Made by a program: the position numbers and the translations under genes
Source of the DNA: a virus
DNA: 30,861 bases
IMG/VR virus record: IMGVR_UViG_3300030116_001210
Location: 1-30,861 of that record
Reading direction: 5' to 3' (one strand)
Notes under the pieces: generated by a model
Told to the model about the DNA's origin: nothing
Seen by the model: the letters and a program-made list of their open reading frames with translations, nothing else
Databases searched by the model: none
Part shown: piece after piece, positions 6,390 to 28,178 of the stretch
Numbering within the stretch: the stretch's first letter is position 1
How the letters are laid out: the number at the start of each line of letters is the position of its first letter

Positions 6390-9300
6390 ATGCCTATATA
6401 CGAACCTGAAGAAATAAAGATTGAAAACGAAGAACAGGAAACTACACCAAAAAAGAAAGTAGTATTTCCTGTTTATGGAACACAATCTTACGTTGCTCCT
6501 GAAACTATAAATATGTCTGGAACTACAGTTGATCCTATAACTGTTTTTTCTAAAGATGCAACAGGAAAGTACACAGGAACAGTTGAAAAGTTTACAGGTA
6601 ATCCGGATGATCCAAGACCTTTTAATGAACAATATCAAGATTTTAAAAATAAGCAACAAACTTTTGTTGAGCAAAGCAAACAAATTTCTAATTATTTTAA
6701 TCCTGAAGCTTTAACTATAACTGACTTTACAAATAATCCAGAAGTTCAAGTTAGAGCAAATGAAATGGCTTCGTATTTAGATAACAAAACTTTTGAAGAT
6801 GGTCAAAATGCTGCAGATTTTTTTGTTGACTATACAAGAGGTCGTGATTTTAATCTAACAAAAGCAATGGCTGAAGTAGTATTAAACACACGTAGGCAAA
6901 AACGGAAAGACCCCGAGACAAAAAAGTTTTTAGAAAATTATAGTTACTTAATGAATGAGTTTCATGCTGTAAATCCAAATGGTAAATCCAAATATGAAAA
7001 TGTAGGTATTAGAGAAAATACAACTTTAGCCTTAGATATATTTAAAGGTTTATTTACTGATCCTGCTAATCTTCCTATTCTATTTACAGGTGGTACAAGT
7101 CTTCCTGTTAACATTGCTACTCAACAAGCAGCATCATTAACACTAAGACAAGGTATTAAAAATATGGCTGCTAAAAGTTATAATGTATCTTTAGGTAAAG
7201 TTGCTCCTATTTACAACAAAATTCCTAAGATACCTTTAGACCCAAGAAGTTACAAAAGTTCAATTGGTGTTATTGGTACAGAAGGTGCAATATATGGAGG
7301 GTTAGATAGTCATTTATTTCAGAGAAGATATAATTTATTAGGTGTACAAGGGTATGAAGAGTATGATCCTACAGTTACTTTAATGGGAACTGTTTTTGGT
7401 TTTGGAATAGGAACAACTATTGGAGGAGGTACAACTTATTATTTACGTAATTTAAGTAAATCTGCTAAAGAAGAAAAAGCTATACAACAAACAGAATCTG
7501 AACAATTTAAAAGAACTATTTTAGATGAGCCTGATCCAGAAGCAGAAGGACCGAAAATACTTTCAGTAGAAGAGGCTGCAGAATTAAACAGAAAAGAAAG
7601 GGAAATTAATCCTGAATTAAGTAATCCAACTCATGTAGAAGATGTTGCTGACTTTGAAAGACGTGCAGCAGATGAAGAACAGTTACTGCCTGAAAATTTT
7701 GTAAACAGAGTTATTGATGATGATGGAATTATTATAACGGATAAAACAGTTAGTCAAGTTTTAAAAGAAGAATCAAAAAAAGTTAAACCTAAAATAGGCG
7801 GCTTTCAAAAATACAGAGAAGAAGGCGGTACTATTATTTTAGGTAAGTCTATGCGTATGTTTAATAAGCCTACTACGTATAGTAAACAAGTCGGAGAAGT
7901 TAGTAAGTTTTTAGCAGAATCTGGAGTAGATAACGGGGGAACTGCCTATAATTTTTTAAGACTAATAAGAAATGATTCTTTAGAAAAATTTAGTGACAGA
8001 GTAGAAGATGTTGCTTTTGATTACAACTATTTAAACAGACAATATTCTGAGCAAATAGCTTTTAAACAAGGTGAATATTTATCTAGAATTAACGCATTAA
8101 AAATAGAAGCTGAAAGGATTGCTAGAAATGAAGCTAGATATACTAGAGGACCGGGATTATATTTACGTAAAAAAAATTACAAGTTAAGAGAGGGTACAAC
8201 ATTAAATGATGATTTATATATGTTTTTAAATCAAGGTCGTTTTCAAAGAGATGTACCTGAAAGTATTATAAAAATTGGAGGAAAATTTAGAAAGTTATAC
8301 AACGATATAGAAAAAGATGCTATTATGGCAGGATTTGAATTTCATAAAGTTCCTAATTTTTTCCCTCGTTATTTAAAATCATATAAAGTTAGTAGGCTTG
8401 GAAGTAGAGGAAGAACAAGATATGCTCAACAATTAGTTGATGATGGTTATTTTGATAATTTAACAGATGCTAAAGATGCTGTTAAAAGGCAAACAGATAA
8501 GCTTGAAGGTGATTTTGATCCATCCGAAGGTTCTCTTGGTCAAAGAACTTATAAGAATTTAGATACTTATAATATTAGAGATTTATTTGAACAAGATGTA
8601 TATGCCACAACAATGATGTATGCTAATAGTACAGCTAGAAAAATAGTTACGAAAAAAACTTTAGGGTTTGGAGAATTTGAACAAGATCAAAAATGGTTTA
8701 TTCCTATGTTTGGTGGTAAGGATTTAGTTAAAACAACACCAGAAGATGCCTTTGAATTAGTTACAAAAAATTTAATGGCAAGAGGATTTGATGAGTCTTT
8801 TGTAAACGATCCAATGCTAAAAAAATATATTGATGCAAACTTTTTAGCAAGACAAAACATTACTGATACAATCAAATCTCCTGTAAAGGATGAGCAAGGT
8901 AATATAATTTTAGACAGAAATGGAAATCAAGTTTTAGAAGATATTCCTCTCCCTTTAACGGATTTAATTAAAGCAAATAATAAATTACGAAGTAATGCTT
9001 CTGCATTATCAAATAATTTTAAGTTTAATAACTTAACAGTATCTGAAAGAAATCAATTATACGCTCCTTCTTTTCAAGAATCTATTGATAATATAATTTT
9101 AAATAATTTTAAAAGTGGAACATTTACTAGACAAAGTGGTACAGTTATCGGAGAACTTGACCCCGCTAATGTAAATTATTTAGGAATGCGAAGTCCTTCT
9201 GATGAAAAAGCGAGGTTAAAAACACTTGTAGAAAATGTAACTGGTCAATATGGTAGAGGTACTCCTGAAGCTGAAAGGTTTACAGGAACATTACTAGCAC

Positions 9301-12300
9301 TTCAAGCAGCTAATAAACTTTCTATGGCAACTTTTTCTAGTCTGCCAGAGAGTTTTATTCCAATGTTTAAAGCAACTCCTAAACTAGCAGTACAGGCTTT
9401 TCTTAAAACTGTTTTTGAAGAAGGTGGTAAAGCCGCTTCAAATTTACTTGGAGGTACGAAAGGATTGCCTAGTTTAACTAGAGCAGAAATGCATCAACAT
9501 AACAAAATGATGTCAAGTGCAATGAACGAAGCGTTAAATGCTAGGTATGGAGATAATTTAACAGGAATATCACAAAAATTAACTTACGCTTTTTACAGAA
9601 GTATTTTTCTAGATCAATACACTAAATTTGTACAAATATACTCATACAATGCCGGTAAATTACTTATAAGAGAAAATTTATCTAAGTTAGATAAAATGGG
9701 TAAAGAAGCCTTTAATAAAAACAATAAAAAGGCTATGAGATTAAGATCGACTATAAATCAATTAGGAGTTAATGTAGATGAAGGTATACAATGGCATAGA
9801 TCAGGAGGAGCTATTGACGATCCATTTTATCAAAATTTACAGCGAAGTGCTAATCGATTTGTTGATGAAGTAGTCATGATTCCATCTAGAGAAAATGCTC
9901 AAAAGTTTATAGCCTCAAGTCATTGGGCTGCCAGAGTAGCTTTTCAATTATATTCTTACCCTATTGCTTTTACTAATACTGTTTTAAGAAACGCTTTAAG
10001 AGATATGTCTGTTAATAGAGATTTTGGAACAGCAGCTAAACACGCTGCAGGATTAAGTCTAATGTATTATGCGACAGGCTTTACGCAAAGGCTTAAAGGT
10101 GTAGGAGAATTAGATGCTGAACCAATAGATCAAGCATTTGATACACTACATACTATGGGAATTTCTGGACCATTCATGATAGTTGATGATGTTATGAATA
10201 ATATTTCATATGGAAGTAATACACCTAGATCATTTTTTAGATTATTAGGTCCAACTGTCGGAGGTATGCTTTTAGATGCCTTACAAGGAGATACGCCTTT
10301 TAGTTCAGCAGTATTTAAAAATACATTACCATATCGTAATTTAATAAGAAAACTATCTCCTGAACTAGTGTTTGAGATAGAAGAAGGATTAAAAGATTTA
10401 GAAAGAAGAAGATACCTAACTCGGTTTATCGGACTAACTCCACAAGGAGAGCTAACCAGAGATAGAAAATATTTTGAAGCACAAAAAAGATTTGAATTTC
10501 AAAAAGAATTAAAAGACAAAAGAGATCGACAACGTGATTTAAAGGAAGAGCGTTTAAAATTGTTTACAGGTGGTAAAGCCTCAAACTTAACATTTAATCA
10601 ACAGTACCATAGAGATACTATTGCACAAAATCAAGCAATGTTAAACTCTGATAAAAGTGTGACAACTGCAAAAGTAAAAGGTGTAGAATATAAAGGAAAA
10701 ATATATAACTTGCCAAGTTATGATAGAAATGGAGGATTCTTTACAGACGAAGAACTTAGAAAAAAATATGAAGTTGAAATGGAAACTGGTGTTATTAAAG
10801 GATATGATAAAAACTTTGATGGTCCAATAGAAAATCATCCTGCTAATGTTGCTGCAAGAAAAGAACACGAATTAATGATGGCTGAGGCAGAACTCGCAAG
10901 AGGAGCTATTAATCCTAAGTATACTAATACTCCTTCTAAAGAAATTGTTAGTGGATTAAAGGCAGGTATGAGGGCTTTAGGTTTTGCTGATGGAGGTCGT
11001 GTATCTTTAGCTACTGGTGGTAAATTATCCGAGGACTATCCTGTTCCGTTTACTAAATCTAATCCTTCAGAAAGAAAAATTTCTGGTACAAACGAAAGTT
11101 ATGCTGTAATTGCAGGATTGTTTGAAGAAGAAGATAGAGTTCCGGTTAGAGTAGGAGGATTATTAGGAAAACAAGCAGCTAAAAATAAAACGATAAAAAC
11201 AAATTTATTTAAAAAGAAAGCGGGTTGGAAGTGGACAAAAGTTCCTGAAGGTTTTGATCCTAATCCCGATGGTCAGTTTCCGTTAGTGTCTGTAGAAACA
11301 GGAGGCAAACATTTCTATTCTTTACAAGCTGATTTTCCTGAAGGGGTTTTATTAGAAAGATATGCTAAACAAAAAAGTGAACCTAGACTTAGACCAACAA
11401 CAAAAGGAGTTATTAGGACAGGTAATAAAATAGGAGAAATTAGAACGTCAAGCGGTAAACTACATCCAGTATACGATAATATAGTTGCGGTAGATGAAAA
11501 GACTAAAGCTGTTAAAGGATTAAAAGATATGCCTACAAATGTAATGCCGGCTCCGCAAAGATTTTTTGATCCTGAAGATAAAGGGTATAAGCCTTTCTTA
11601 TCTAATTTTGATTACATTAAAGGGGGTAGGTATGTTGAAATTAATAAAGAGGGCAATAAGGATATTACAGGTGCTACACCTAAACAAGCTAGAATATCTA
11701 TAAGCCCTGAAGGTAAAGCATCTTTTACAATATCAAAAGAGTTTTACGATTCTATTTTTCCACAACAAACAATACGACAATTTCATGGTACAAAAAACGA
11801 ATTACCTGAAGTTTTACAAGATTTTGATATGGGCTATCAAGGCTCAGAATCCAACATATATGGGGCAGGATTTTATACAACTTCTGAATCAGGTATTGCT
11901 AAAGGGTATGCTAAAAAAACAGACAGACGTACTGGTGAAACAGCTAAAGGTTTTGTATATGAGATCACAGAAAAAAAAGGTAATAAATTATATAATCTAG
12001 ACTCGAAAGTTCCCGACCAAATTAAAAAAGATATACTTGAACCTGAACTTGATATTTCTACTGAGTTAGAAGATGAATTAGCAGGGTTTTTAGAAGAAAA
12101 TCCAAATGCATCTTTCTTAGAATTATATGATGAGGCTAGAGAGATTTCAAGAGGGTATCAAATACCAACATATGAAGTTCAAGAATTATTTAATGGTTGG
12201 GCTATGTATTTAATAGACCAAGGGTACAACGGACTTAGGCATAAAGGTGGTGTTCTAAGCGGAGGAAAAGAACATGATGTTAAAATTTATTGGAATCCAA

Positions 12301-12332
12301 GTCAATCTTTAAATGTAAAACTTTTAAAATGA
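6390..12332 (+). CDS. Giant ejection-type virion protein with C-terminal ADP-ribosyltransferase-like domain
   Basis: This 1980-residue protein is the largest in the window. The N-terminal ~1400 residues are mostly helical, with hydrophobic stretches (for example about 205-250, 325-350 and 1185-1330) in long charged segments. This suits a phage internal virion protein ejected into the cell, such as T7 gp16, though no lytic transglycosylase motif is visible. A glycine motif, DGGRVSLATGG, lies at 1534-1544. About 250 residues of unknown fold follow. The last ~185 residues carry FHGT (H1799), then GAGFYTT (1825-1831) with an Ala-Lys-x-Tyr helix after it, then KEHDVKIYWNP near the end (E1961). This is the His/Tyr/Glu layout of PARP-like ADP-ribosyltransferases. 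The start follows the upstream stop by two bases with no clear ribosome site. The TGA overlaps the lysozyme ATG. Confidence 0.75.
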   Translation: MPIYEPEEIKIENEEQETTPKKKVVFPVYGTQSYVAPETINMSGTTVDPITVFSKDATGKYTGTVEKFTGNPDDPRPFNEQYQDFKNKQQTFVEQSKQISNYFNPEALTITDFTNNPEVQVRANEMASYLDNKTFEDGQNAADFFVDYTRGRDFNLTKAMAEVVLNTRRQKRKDPETKKFLENYSYLMNEFHAVNPNGKSKYENVGIRENTTLALDIFKGLFTDPANLPILFTGGTSLPVNIATQQAASLTLRQGIKNMAAKSYNVSLGKVAPIYNKIPKIPLDPRSYKSSIGVIGTEGAIYGGLDSHLFQRRYNLLGVQGYEEYDPTVTLMGTVFGFGIGTTIGGGTTYYLRNLSKSAKEEKAIQQTESEQFKRTILDEPDPEAEGPKILSVEEAAELNRKEREINPELSNPTHVEDVADFERRAADEEQLLPENFVNRVIDDDGIIITDKTVSQVLKEESKKVKPKIGGFQKYREEGGTIILGKSMRMFNKPTTYSKQVGEVSKFLAESGVDNGGTAYNFLRLIRNDSLEKFSDRVEDVAFDYNYLNRQYSEQIAFKQGEYLSRINALKIEAERIARNEARYTRGPGLYLRKKNYKLREGTTLNDDLYMFLNQGRFQRDVPESIIKIGGKFRKLYNDIEKDAIMAGFEFHKVPNFFPRYLKSYKVSRLGSRGRTRYAQQLVDDGYFDNLTDAKDAVKRQTDKLEGDFDPSEGSLGQRTYKNLDTYNIRDLFEQDVYATTMMYANSTARKIVTKKTLGFGEFEQDQKWFIPMFGGKDLVKTTPEDAFELVTKNLMARGFDESFVNDPMLKKYIDANFLARQNITDTIKSPVKDEQGNIILDRNGNQVLEDIPLPLTDLIKANNKLRSNASALSNNFKFNNLTVSERNQLYAPSFQESIDNIILNNFKSGTFTRQSGTVIGELDPANVNYLGMRSPSDEKARLKTLVENVTGQYGRGTPEAERFTGTLLALQAANKLSMATFSSLPESFIPMFKATPKLAVQAFLKTVFEEGGKAASNLLGGTKGLPSLTRAEMHQHNKMMSSAMNEALNARYGDNLTGISQKLTYAFYRSIFLDQYTKFVQIYSYNAGKLLIRENLSKLDKMGKEAFNKNNKKAMRLRSTINQLGVNVDEGIQWHRSGGAIDDPFYQNLQRSANRFVDEVVMIPSRENAQKFIASSHWAARVAFQLYSYPIAFTNTVLRNALRDMSVNRDFGTAAKHAAGLSLMYYATGFTQRLKGVGELDAEPIDQAFDTLHTMGISGPFMIVDDVMNNISYGSNTPRSFFRLLGPTVGGMLLDALQGDTPFSSAVFKNTLPYRNLIRKLSPELVFEIEEGLKDLERRRYLTRFIGLTPQGELTRDRKYFEAQKRFEFQKELKDKRDRQRDLKEERLKLFTGGKASNLTFNQQYHRDTIAQNQAMLNSDKSVTTAKVKGVEYKGKIYNLPSYDRNGGFFTDEELRKKYEVEMETGVIKGYDKNFDGPIENHPANVAARKEHELMMAEAELARGAINPKYTNTPSKEIVSGLKAGMRALGFADGGRVSLATGGKLSEDYPVPFTKSNPSERKISGTNESYAVIAGLFEEEDRVPVRVGGLLGKQAAKNKTIKTNLFKKKAGWKWTKVPEGFDPNPDGQFPLVSVETGGKHFYSLQADFPEGVLLERYAKQKSEPRLRPTTKGVIRTGNKIGEIRTSSGKLHPVYDNIVAVDEKTKAVKGLKDMPTNVMPAPQRFFDPEDKGYKPFLSNFDYIKGGRYVEINKEGNKDITGATPKQARISISPEGKASFTISKEFYDSIFPQQTIRQFHGTKNELPEVLQDFDMGYQGSESNIYGAGFYTTSESGIAKGYAKKTDRRTGETAKGFVYEITEKKGNKLYNLDSKVPDQIKKDILEPELDISTELEDELAGFLEENPNASFLELYDEAREISRGYQIPTYEVQELFNGWAMYLIDQGYNGLRHKGGVLSGGKEHDVKIYWNPSQSLNVKLLK

Positions 12333-12790
12333 AATACAACGACTATTTAAATCATTTAGAACATAGAGAAGGTAACGAAGAATGCGTATACCTTGATACA
12401 CTAGGCAAGCCTACCTGTGGTGTTGGGCATCTCTTGACAGAAAGAGAACGTCAAATCTACCAAGTAGGAGATAGAGTTTCTCAAGAGCAGAGGGATGAGT
12501 GGCTTAGGCAAGATGCTGCTAAAGCATGGGATGCTGCTGCTCAACAGATACAAGACTTACGTATTGACGATGCAGACTTTATTATTGCATTAGGTTCAGT
12601 AAACTTTCAATTAGGTACACGATGGATGGATAAGTTTCCATCAGCCTATAGAGCCTTGGCTAGTAAAGATTATGATGAGGCAATACGACAAGTCTCAACT
12701 GGTTCGGGGAGGAATGGTCAATCTAGATGGAAAGAACAAACACCAGTAAGGGTTGAAGATTTTGTAATAGCTATTGACAAATTAAGATAA
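12329..12790 (+). CDS. Endolysin, T4-type lysozyme (GH24)
   Basis: A 153-residue lysozyme that would cleave peptidoglycan between MurNAc and GlcNAc at the end of infection. The N-terminus has E14 in the sequence HREG, D23 in YLDT and T29 in PTCGVGH. The spacings of 9 and 6 equal those of the E11-D20-T26 triad of phage T4 lysozyme. A helical remainder ends with the usual SRWKEQTPVR-type segment. The frame stays open upstream to an ATG at 12290, but the ATG at 12329 overlaps the upstream TGA (ATGA) and starts right at the lysozyme fold, so I chose it. No signal peptide is seen, so release should depend on a holin. Holin-like genes follow. Confidence 0.9.
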   Translation: MKYNDYLNHLEHREGNEECVYLDTLGKPTCGVGHLLTERERQIYQVGDRVSQEQRDEWLRQDAAKAWDAAAQQIQDLRIDDADFIIALGSVNFQLGTRWMDKFPSAYRALASKDYDEAIRQVSTGSGRNGQSRWKEQTPVRVEDFVIAIDKLR

Positions 12791-12800
12791 GAACCCTATA

Positions 12801-12950
12801 ATGATATTGTATTTAGAAGATCAATTAGAAGCATGCTATAGACAGTATTGCATTCATCAAGTAAAACAAGATATGCCTTTCATGAGTCTAGACGATTTTA
12901 GAAACATGTTTGAAGACTTGATGGAAGTAATTTACGCAGACGAAGAATAG
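12801..12950 (+). CDS. Small hypothetical protein in lysis cassette
   Basis: An open frame of 49 residues fills the space between the lysozyme and the holin-like gene. It begins MILYLEDQLEACYRQYC and ends in an acidic tail, MEVIYADEE. It has two Cys and no membrane segment. Its TAG shares a base with the GTG start of the next gene (TAGTG), the kind of overlap seen elsewhere on this strand, which supports its being real. No ribosome site is obvious before the ATG. Function unknown. Confidence 0.6.
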   Translation: MILYLEDQLEACYRQYCIHQVKQDMPFMSLDDFRNMFEDLMEVIYADEE

Positions 12951-13381
12951 TGGGAATACCATTTGAAATAATCACGATGATTGGGTCTACCCTTTTGGGT
13001 GGGCTTATGAGTTTGTGGTCGCAGTCAATAAAAGCTAAACAAGCTAATCAAGCTATGCTAATGGAACGTGCTAAGTTCCAACAAAAATCTGTTAAAGATG
13101 CTAGAGAATATGAGAATGTAGGATTCCAATGGACCAGAAGAATCATAGCCCTCACAGCTATATTCTCTATAGTTGTATTCCCAAAAGTTGTCGCAGTATT
13201 TTTTCCAGAAGTCTCAGTAACTGTAGGATACACAGAGTTTAGACCGGGATTTTTATTCCTTCCGGAAAAAGAAGTAATGGAATGGCGACAAATGTATGGT
13301 CTAGTTATTACTCCGCTTGATACAAATTTAGTAGGGGCTATTGTTGGTATGTATTTTGGTGGAAGTTTAGTCAAAAAATAA
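12950..13381 (+). CDS. Holin-like protein with three membrane segments
   Basis: This 143-residue protein starts at a GTG that overlaps the previous TAG. Hydrophobic segments lie at about residues 2-22, 66-86 and 118-139, with a charged, Lys/Gln-rich linker between the first two. Size, topology and position directly after the lysozyme fit a holin that permeabilises the inner membrane to release the endolysin. The overall plan is like the three-span holin family described for gene transfer agents, but that family match is tentative. A second holin candidate lies at 13729-14124. Confidence 0.65.
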   Translation: MGIPFEIITMIGSTLLGGLMSLWSQSIKAKQANQAMLMERAKFQQKSVKDAREYENVGFQWTRRIIALTAIFSIVVFPKVVAVFFPEVSVTVGYTEFRPGFLFLPEKEVMEWRQMYGLVITPLDTNLVGAIVGMYFGGSLVKK

Positions 13382-13728: not shown

Positions 13729-14124
13729 ATGGGAGATCAATATCATCCTTCAGGTAGGTTTGGAGGTGACATGGACAGAAACGAGGTTGAGATTGACCTC
13801 AATAAGTTCATGGCGTTACTCCAAGAAAAGTCTGAATTAAAAGATAGAATCAGAGAACTTGAAGACGAAAAGAATGACAACCCTTATCAAAAGCTAATCT
13901 TTGTTGCAGAAGCTGTTGATAGTTGGAGAATTATTCCTAGAGCCTTTCTTGGTGTGTATATGTATCTATTATACTATACAACATTTTGGTTTATGGCTTT
14001 ACCCGAACCTTCATTTGAGCAGTCAGGTTTAATATCTATTGTAGTTGGTGCGGGTGCAGCATGGTTTGGATTGTATACTAATACATCTAAAGGTAAATCA
14101 GATTTTTCTAAGGGAGGTAAATAG
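13729..14124 (+). CDS. Second holin-like membrane protein with coiled-coil N-terminus
   Basis: This is a 131-residue protein. Residues about 20-52 form a charged coiled coil (Glu, Lys, Leu, Arg). Two hydrophobic spans follow at about 70-92 and 100-118, the second containing ISIVVGAGAAWFGLYTNT. The C-terminus is short, Lys/Gly-rich and hydrophilic. A GGAG site lies 7 bases before the ATG, and the TAG overlaps the GTG of the next gene (TAGTG). Topology and place suggest a holin or a holin partner. An alternative is a membrane-anchored virion assembly factor. Confidence 0.6.
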   Translation: MGDQYHPSGRFGGDMDRNEVEIDLNKFMALLQEKSELKDRIRELEDEKNDNPYQKLIFVAEAVDSWRIIPRAFLGVYMYLLYYTTFWFMALPEPSFEQSGLISIVVGAGAAWFGLYTNTSKGKSDFSKGGK

Positions 14125-15158
14125 TGAGACAGGCATCACTACTTTTAACATTTATTTTATTAACAGGATTTTTACAAGCAGATCAGACAGGAGATTGTAC
14201 GGCAGGTTCGCAGTATTGTGAGCAGAATAGTTTAGAGACTACTAACACTACGACTACAACTAACACAAACACGAATACAAATACTAATACAAATACTAAT
14301 ACTAATACAAATACAAATACTTCAACAAATACAAATACTAATACAAATACTAATACTAATACAAATACAAATACTAGCACGAATACGAACAGCAATACGA
14401 ATGTAAATACAAATACATCTACTGCTACTAATCAGAACACTAACGTAAATACTAATACTTCGACTAGTACAGTAAACTCTAGCGTAGATCAGAATGTAAC
14501 TAACACGACAACAAGCACATCAAATAACACAAACACTAATATAAATACATCAAACTCGACTAGTACAACAAACAATACAAATGTAAATCAATCCACATCA
14601 GAATCAAATGTTACAACAGATAATACAAACACTAACACTAACAACAACAATAGTGTTTCTGATAATACTAATAGAAACATTAATCAGTCTACTTCTACAC
14701 AAAATATAAATCAAAATGTTAAAACTAAAGCTCCTCCCGCTTCTGCTATTGCTCCTAGTATCATGTCTTATTCACAGGACTTATGTACAACAGGAGTATC
14801 AGGGGCTTTTCAAGGGCAGATATTTGGTATCTCAGGCGGGAAGGCAGTACGTGACGAAAACTGTGAACGTCTAAAGCTATCTAAATATCTATATGATACT
14901 GGTATGAAAGTAGCTTCGGTATCTATTTTGTGTCAAGACCCAAGAGTATTCAGAGCAATGGAAATGGCAGGAACACCTTGTCCATATCAAGGTAAGATAG
15001 GTAAAGAGGCTGCTCAAGCGTGGGCAAAAAATAAAAAAGATAGACCAGATTACGACCAATTAGAAGAAAACTATATTAAACATTGCAAGACACAAAGAAA
15101 CTCTAATGGTAAAAAGAAATCAGGAAGAACCTGTGCAAAAGAATTTAGAAACAGTTGA
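14124..15158 (+). CDS. Exported protein with long Asn-Thr repeat and Cys-containing C-terminal domain
   Basis: This 344-residue protein starts at a GTG overlapping the previous stop. Residues 1-19 look like a signal peptide (hydrophobic core LLLTFILLTGF, then LQA before D20). A short Cys-containing stretch follows. Residues about 38-200 are almost pure Asn and Thr with some Ser, starting as (NT)n and becoming less regular. The C-terminal ~140 residues form a different, folded-looking domain with Cys and Gly-rich motifs (DLCTTGVSGAFQ, IFGISGGK, LCQDPRVF, GTPCP). Adjacent late genes are for lysis, so an envelope or virion-surface role is likely. No enzyme motif is visible. Tandem-repeat length probably varies among relatives. 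Confidence 0.75.
   Translation: MRQASLLLTFILLTGFLQADQTGDCTAGSQYCEQNSLETTNTTTTTNTNTNTNTNTNTNTNTNTNTSTNTNTNTNTNTNTNTNTSTNTNSNTNVNTNTSTATNQNTNVNTNTSTSTVNSSVDQNVTNTTTSTSNNTNTNINTSNSTSTTNNTNVNQSTSESNVTTDNTNTNTNNNNSVSDNTNRNINQSTSTQNINQNVKTKAPPASAIAPSIMSYSQDLCTTGVSGAFQGQIFGISGGKAVRDENCERLKLSKYLYDTGMKVASVSILCQDPRVFRAMEMAGTPCPYQGKIGKEAAQAWAKNKKDRPDYDQLEENYIKHCKTQRNSNGKKKSGRTCAKEFRNS
14257..14416 (+). repeat. Hexanucleotide-type tandem repeat encoding (Asn-Thr)n
   Basis: A period-6 repeat of the form AAY-ACN lies in the exported protein gene. The codons vary (AAT or AAC; ACA, ACT or ACG), but blocks such as aatacaaatactaat recur exactly several times. That pattern suggests expansion by slippage or unequal exchange, followed by silent drift. 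Interruptions with Ser begin near 14320 and become common after 14390. Confidence 0.8.
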
Positions 15159-28004: not shown

Positions 28005-28178
28005 TCAAGCCCTCGATTTAATTTTTTTAAATTTCTTTCTCCACTTGGAGCGTTTGAATTGAGTCATTGTTCCATCTGCATATCTGATCTCAATGATGCC
28101 ATTATTAACATGTAAAGATGTCACTTGTTCTTTGTCAAGTATATCCTTGTAAAGTTTTTTAACATCATACTGAGTCAT
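28005..28178 (-). CDS. Small basic hypothetical protein
   Basis: This is a 57-residue protein beginning MTQYDVKKLYKDIL. It ends in a very basic tail (FKRSKWRKKFKKIKSRA) that could bind nucleic acid. An ATG at 28214 is also in frame, but it overlaps the upstream gene by 50 bases. The ATG at 28178 overlaps it by 14, and I prefer that one. The two starts cannot be separated firmly, because a GGAAG also lies before the longer one. Function unknown. Confidence 0.55.
   Translation of the reverse strand: MTQYDVKKLYKDILDKEQVTSLHVNNGIIEIRYADGTMTQFKRSKWRKKFKKIKSRA

Follow-up and report, generated by a model that had tools for sequence, protein, structure and literature searches.

Several described systems resemble in part the locus studied here, whose central gene we call G1 and whose two partners we call G2 and G3. 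The nearest conceptual precedent for G1 is curli (CsgA/B, type VIII secretion), which have been reported in other pelagiphages (PMC9599517, PMC7029224). Both share the idea of an exported beta-fibre rich in N, Q, T and S, and of phage genes which alter the surface of infected Pelagibacter. G1 differs from curli in its register of two residues and its superperiod near 15–16, in place of curlin repeats, and in its additional Cys domain. CsgG (PF03783) was found in none of 28 records (the window and 27 carriers, some of which may be fragments), with positive controls, and the Pfam scan of the window gave no match to the curlin family. With neither CsgG nor curlin repeats, a curli identity for G1 was rejected. 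Spanins (Rz/Rz1; the T1 gp11 u-spanin) share with the gene set a position in the lysis region and a one-TM coiled-coil partner. Some u-spanins are beta-rich, and they have no periplasmic Cys (PMC6139136). T4 Spackle-type exclusion proteins are also phage-encoded, exported periplasmic proteins (PMC7677548), but they have neither a fibre nor a multi-gene module, and a likeness of role is only proposed. Finally, G1 matches phrog_20531 (function unknown), which contains JJJA_0025 of Achromobacter phage JWDelta, with E=1.9e-10 over residues 91–300; the match falls partly in a low-complexity tract, and a short-tract homologue also matches (E=6e-9). The JWDelta protein has an exported layout, a Cys domain and a tract of alternating N/Q, all of which recall G1. 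It differs in an extra Gly-rich N-terminal region, and its gene stands apart from the lysis genes with no G2 or G3 seen, unlike that of the window.

The window, that is, the whole stretch of DNA which was analysed, comprises the whole of a virus record (30,861 bp), which is probably a piece of a larger genome. A SAR11 or related host is plausible, because the DNA polymerase is nearest to those of the Pelagibacter phages HTVC103P, HTVC104P and HTVC115P, with about 50% identity. The features of the locus are collected in Table 1. The G1 ORF starts with GTG. Its signal peptide is likely to be cleaved at MRQASLLLTFILLTGFLQA|DQ, a point chosen by eye, without a predictor. AlphaFold2 (AF2) places a helix at residues 3–13, and G1 homologues have a comparable hydrophobic segment at the N-terminus, which supports the export proposed by the first-pass annotation. 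The repeat stalk it described is also present, as a tract of 161 residues. Our preferred reading, to which we assign a probability of about 45%, is that G1 is the exported fibre of an envelope module of the infected cell, together with G2 and G3.

Table 1. Coordinates of features in and around the G1 locus of the window
Feature	Position	Strand	Remarks
Endolysin (phage lysozyme)	12326..12790	+	
Sigma-70-type promoter, perfect TTGACA-17-TATAAT	12774..12802	+	Upstream of holin-like, G1 and G2 genes
Holin-like multi-TM protein	12950..13381	+	phrog_38283 (function unknown)
Small membrane protein	13729..14124	+	Directly 5' of G1; phrog_10198 (function unknown)
G1, exported protein, 344 aa	14124..15158	+	Signal peptide, NT tract, C-terminal four-Cys domain
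Cleavable signal peptide of G1, residues 1–19	14124..14180	+	Likely; by eye, AF2 helix, homologue N-termini
Cys pair C25, C32 (DCTAGSQYCE)	14196..14219	+	N-terminal to tract; common to most long-tract homologues
Asn/Thr tract, residues 39–199, 161 aa	14238..14720	+	Strict two-residue register
Exact 48-bp repeat, copy 1	14274..14321	+	
Exact 48-bp repeat, copy 2	14328..14375	+	
Conserved C-terminal domain, Cys 221, 247, 270, 286	14736..15158	+	Beta hairpin plus helices
G2, 731 aa	15106..17301	+	Hydrophobic N-terminal export segment; start overlaps G1 end
G3, 121 aa	17298..17663	-	One-TM coiled coil ending NPLAN; convergent on G2

The tract contains 59 T, 58 N, 20 S, 9 V and 6 Q, plus others. 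Its description as nearly pure Asn/Thr holds for about the first 60 residues; beyond them it is mixed, and overall N+T make up 73% and N+T+S 85%. A period-6 array with exact sub-blocks had been noticed in the DNA, and it was recovered: TRF detects a period of 6 at 14265-14417 (75% match) and of 18 at 14274-14417 (79% match), and a 48-bp block is present twice without changes. None of 2000 synonymous-codon shuffles reached a repeat of 48 bp (the longest was 47), so a true duplication accounts for part of the array. Codons are mixed along the tract (AAT/AAC and ACA/ACT/ACG), which indicates that the array is not freshly expanded. An ORF of 52 aa in the +1 frame of G1 (14716-14874, MLKLKLLPLLLLLLVSC...), with a lipoprotein-like start, was considered as an embedded o-spanin and rejected. 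Only 24 of 257 loci keep it and stops interrupt it in close relatives; it is therefore probably a fortuitous by-product of the conserved PPASAIAPS codons.

The most striking feature of the tract is its two-residue register. Between constant boundaries, the lengths of the 152 homologous tracts vary widely but have, without exception, the same parity. In 60 representatives, all 601 charged residues fall on a single parity, while shuffling each tract leaves at least 206 on the minority parity by the same statistic; these homologues are related by descent, so that sequence counts are not independent events. Up to 60 residues from the tract end, each of the 30 positions on one parity is charged in at least one homologue, and no position on the other parity ever is. 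Farther upstream, the 21 charge-bearing positions are all on one parity, which gives 51 of 51 for the whole tract. The charge-bearing face contains Thr, Asn and Val and all the Glu/Asp/Lys/Arg, the charge-free face Asn, Ser, Thr, Val, Gln, Ala and Ile. Mutation bias points against this segregation, since single-base changes that create a charged residue are more numerous, in the window sequence, on the charge-free parity (184/609 vs 127/547). The register is kept, with at most one exception each, in distant members of different composition: JWDelta (6:1), Variovorax (5:0), L176 (14:1), L180 (9:0) and L183 (5:0). It is absent from the very short roseophage tracts of CRP-810 (3:2) and CRP-207 (4:2).

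The plain reading of this register is the alternation of a beta-strand with one buried face, and the sequences would fit a beta-fibre in which an Asn/Ser face is buried and a Thr/charged face exposed. Blocks of Ser are spaced every 14–18 residues (z about 4–6), with a second peak near 30. This spacing is compatible with a coil of about 15–16 residues, although it is only suggestive, and the peak at about 30 residues is another possible coil length. AlphaFold, previously suggested as a check for residues 205–344, modelled the C-terminal domain but left the tract unfolded (pLDDT <50, no strands), and is uninformative there. The tract might also be a disordered, low-complexity linker driven by mutation, whose constant parity comes from slippage in 6-bp steps. 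Low AlphaFold confidence and the true 48-bp duplication agree with such a linker, and length parity would survive slippage of this kind. However, slippage cannot explain a 601:0 segregation of charge over an irregular sequence and in distant homologues, and we regard this already disfavoured linker as very unlikely. The register is an unusually clear evolutionary sign that a low-complexity repeat folds, and it yields a direct structural prediction for the G1 tract.

It had also been suggested that the array might change its length quickly, as in phase variation. We have measured the tracts of the long-tract homologues between the N-terminal Cys motif and the conserved PPASAIAPS, and their lengths range from 108 to 268 residues. 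Length is the same in all 26 non-identical pairs with at least 99% identity in the adjoining domain and in 26 of the 28 pairs with 97–99% identity, with differences emerging at lower identity; some pairs come from related samples and are incompletely independent, and rare length variants could be masked by short-read assembly. Such constancy among near-identical relatives speaks against rapid change. A phase-variable contingency repeat was rejected for the same reason, and also because a 6-bp coding unit cannot shift the frame: all lengths differ in two-residue steps. An assembly artefact in the repeat is unlikely, because the closest independent contig (L001) has a tract of equal length, with 2 mismatches in 498 bp. 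Over the whole G1 family the tract extends from about 15 to about 267 residues, and in isolates it is short (about 15–60).

The C-terminal region of G1 has 140 residues. Its AF2 model (residues 222–343) is a beta hairpin followed by helices, with pLDDT mostly >90 from residue 260, and the four Cys are invariant in 14 diverse family members. PDB searches by sequence and by fold (Foldseek, VIA-align) gave nothing convincing, and the matches to the fold in BFVD are all uncharacterised phage proteins. The first-pass annotation considered this domain as distinct and conserved, and proposed to look for it in marine phages. It is a conserved domain, shared by more than 450 viral contigs. Among its carriers are hundreds of contigs from marine phages, isolated pelagiphages and roseophages, an N4-like phage and operons on bacterial chromosomes. 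The family is found in the Pelagibacter phages HTVC202P, HTVC033P, HTVC023P, HTVC115P, Mosig and Baldr, in the roseophages CRP-207 and CRP-810 and in marine MAG contigs, with weak matches in JWDelta and Agrobacterium JP1. Chromosomal copies are rare: among 398 genomes sampled from the phylum, 7 have the domain, and the query genome is one of these 7. Several of the chromosomal copies have two neighbours, one a further secreted protein rich in Ser/Gly/Ala, the other small and also secreted. For example, L289 (6430-8241), L291 and L095 (3965-5965) carry, in Burkholderiales-like genomes, an operon of three genes on a chromosome or megaplasmid, for a Ser/Gly/Ala-rich secreted protein, a G1-type domain protein and a small secreted protein (GDYGVWHVPQYMPG...); the L289 operon copies have no family match in NCBIfam. 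Seven G1 homologues (L091, L177, L178, L179, L183, L185 and L186) have a C-terminal hydrophobic tail, absent in the window G1, which suggests that they are anchored in a membrane.

G2 consists of a beta-rich N-terminal head (residues 55–215), a Cys-rich part, an acidic stalk (66 D/E of 176) and a conserved C-terminus. Heads vary among clades; the C-terminus remains recognisable. The window head is predicted as beta-rich with pLDDT about 85–93, and the G2 fold has no convincing match in PDB (Foldseek, VIA-align). A NIDO domain (PF06119) was rejected, with 13.2 bits against a gathering cut-off of 25 (E=0.093); none of 61 G2 homologues matches it at E<=0.01, and the head has no significant family match. 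The usual order is G1, then secreted G2, then a one-TM coiled-coil G3 ending in "NPL". In the window and a few relatives, G3 runs towards G2 from the opposite strand. At least 3.8 kb of sequence follows G1 in 150 loci, of which 137 contain a G3-like ORF (one-TM coiled coil, NPL end) and 112 a G2-like ORF (exported, acidic stalk), as judged by simple rules for ORFs, signals, TM segments and lipoboxes in loci which come mostly from two query types. The 3.2 kb downstream of G1 contain NPL ORFs at 29 times the density of the remainder of these loci. Isolates with the gene set are HTVC202P, HTVC033P, HTVC023P, HTVC115P, Mosig and MedDCM-S28-C10. The stalk protein was thought to be unusual in a podovirus late operon; this does not agree with the hundreds of marine phage contigs which carry G1, mostly beside the same two partners. 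Long tracts occur with one G2 head type (99/101) and short tracts with other heads (77/77), an association which is confounded by phylogeny and by the choice of two search queries; the exceptions are L180 and L183. Mu releasin (DUF2730) was rejected for G3, since the "DUF2730" label in MedDCM-S28-C10 failed a Pfam scan, and defence families gave only coiled-coil noise for G3. We have found no description of the module in the literature searched. A three-gene exported module that recurs in podo-, myo- and roseophages under the label "hypothetical" would represent a major and so far unstudied function in the host envelope.

G1 and G2 might alternatively be virion parts (a fibre or appendage) with signal-like N-termini, or be joined to particles at release. 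The tract is fibre-like, the modular heads resemble receptor-binding proteins and some phages have structural genes nearby. Nevertheless, we consider this unlikely: hydrophobic export segments and conserved Cys suit periplasmic proteins, the chromosomal homologues are not phage particles, and the membrane tails mentioned above are also against it.

In the window clade the gene set sits in the lysis region. The multi-TM protein is a putative holin, and no SAR segment is obvious in the window endolysin, a further point against a Mu-type releasin. The promoter in Table 1 is the sole plus-strand site of the window with at least 11 of 12 sigma-70 matches. A 12/12 promoter is found at most 1.7 kb upstream of G1 in 26 loci, including the window, and in some of them the sequences which flank it are unrelated. 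Upstream of G1, the density of sites with 11 or more matches is about five times that found elsewhere, and conservation of the promoter is limited to the window clade. Such a perfect site suggests transcription by the host RNA polymerase. A second perfect 12/12 sigma-70-like promoter is present at 28008 on the minus strand, reading leftwards into replication genes.

This location raises the question of a spanin substitute, in which G3, as an inner membrane coiled coil, and the exported G1 and G2 would form a link and disrupt the outer membrane in the last step of lysis. Besides the neighbouring endolysin and holin-like genes, lysozyme or peptidase genes are near the module in HTVC033P, CRP-207, CRP-810 and HTVC023P. 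Judged by its sequence, G3 has a putative N-terminal TMD followed by a coiled coil, a layout which resembles an i-spanin; no conserved lipoprotein candidate was found in the lysis region of the window, and some u-spanins are beta-rich. The gene set is nevertheless unlike spanins in several features. It has no lipoprotein component: by a simple rule, a lipobox is found in 0/259 G1, 0/131 G3 and only 5/195 G2, and without it G1 does not have the u-spanin layout of N-terminal lipobox and C-terminal TMD. G1 has at least four Cys, unlike u-spanins (PMC6139136), the heads are exchangeable, the family tract length is very variable, the gene is remote from lysis genes in JWDelta and Agrobacterium JP1, and there are chromosomal homologues. 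We regard a spanin role as less likely than an envelope module.

In our preferred reading, that of an envelope module, the infected cell would export G1 through Sec. The Asn/Thr tract would form a rigid beta-fibre, either a beta-solenoid or a cross-beta ladder. One of its faces would pack the Asn/Ser side chains, and the opposite face would bear Thr and every charged residue. The N-terminal Cys pair and the C-terminal four-Cys domain would close this fibre. Together with secreted G2 and G3, it would build a module whose most likely task is the presentation of the G2 head in the periplasm or on the cell surface; such display could alter adhesion or receptor access, for example in superinfection exclusion. 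The conserved gene set, the register, the stable length and the promoter hexamers are observed, while we infer that the signal peptide is cleaved, that the tract has a beta fold and that G1–G3 form a complex, as well as where they are located and what they do. Surface display by G1, as suggested previously, is possible. The envelope module fits the export signals, the Cys, the modular heads, the membrane-anchored variants and the chromosomal relatives. We are more hesitant about a wider claim, and consider it less likely than not: that the tract stands for a new class of exported beta-fibre, whose buried face is polar (Asn/Ser), which is tuned in two-residue steps and bears a previously unseen four-Cys cap, and which forms with G2 and G3 a phage-borne surface apparatus that controls superinfection or adhesion in unrelated, abundant marine phages.

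Two minor observations concern neighbouring sequences. G3 of HTVC023P and HTVC033P contains His-rich stretches (HSHDMPKHSHEVGEHQHDEHGH; HNHDFDHTHD), which are possibly metal-binding (L089 8032-8391, L090 8044-8367). Upstream in the window, 6390-12332 codes for a protein of 1980 aa which matches phage virion/endolysin PHROGs; by eye, its C-terminal segment FHGTKNELPEVLQDFDMGYQGSESNIYGAGFYTT resembles an ADP-ribosyltransferase-type motif.
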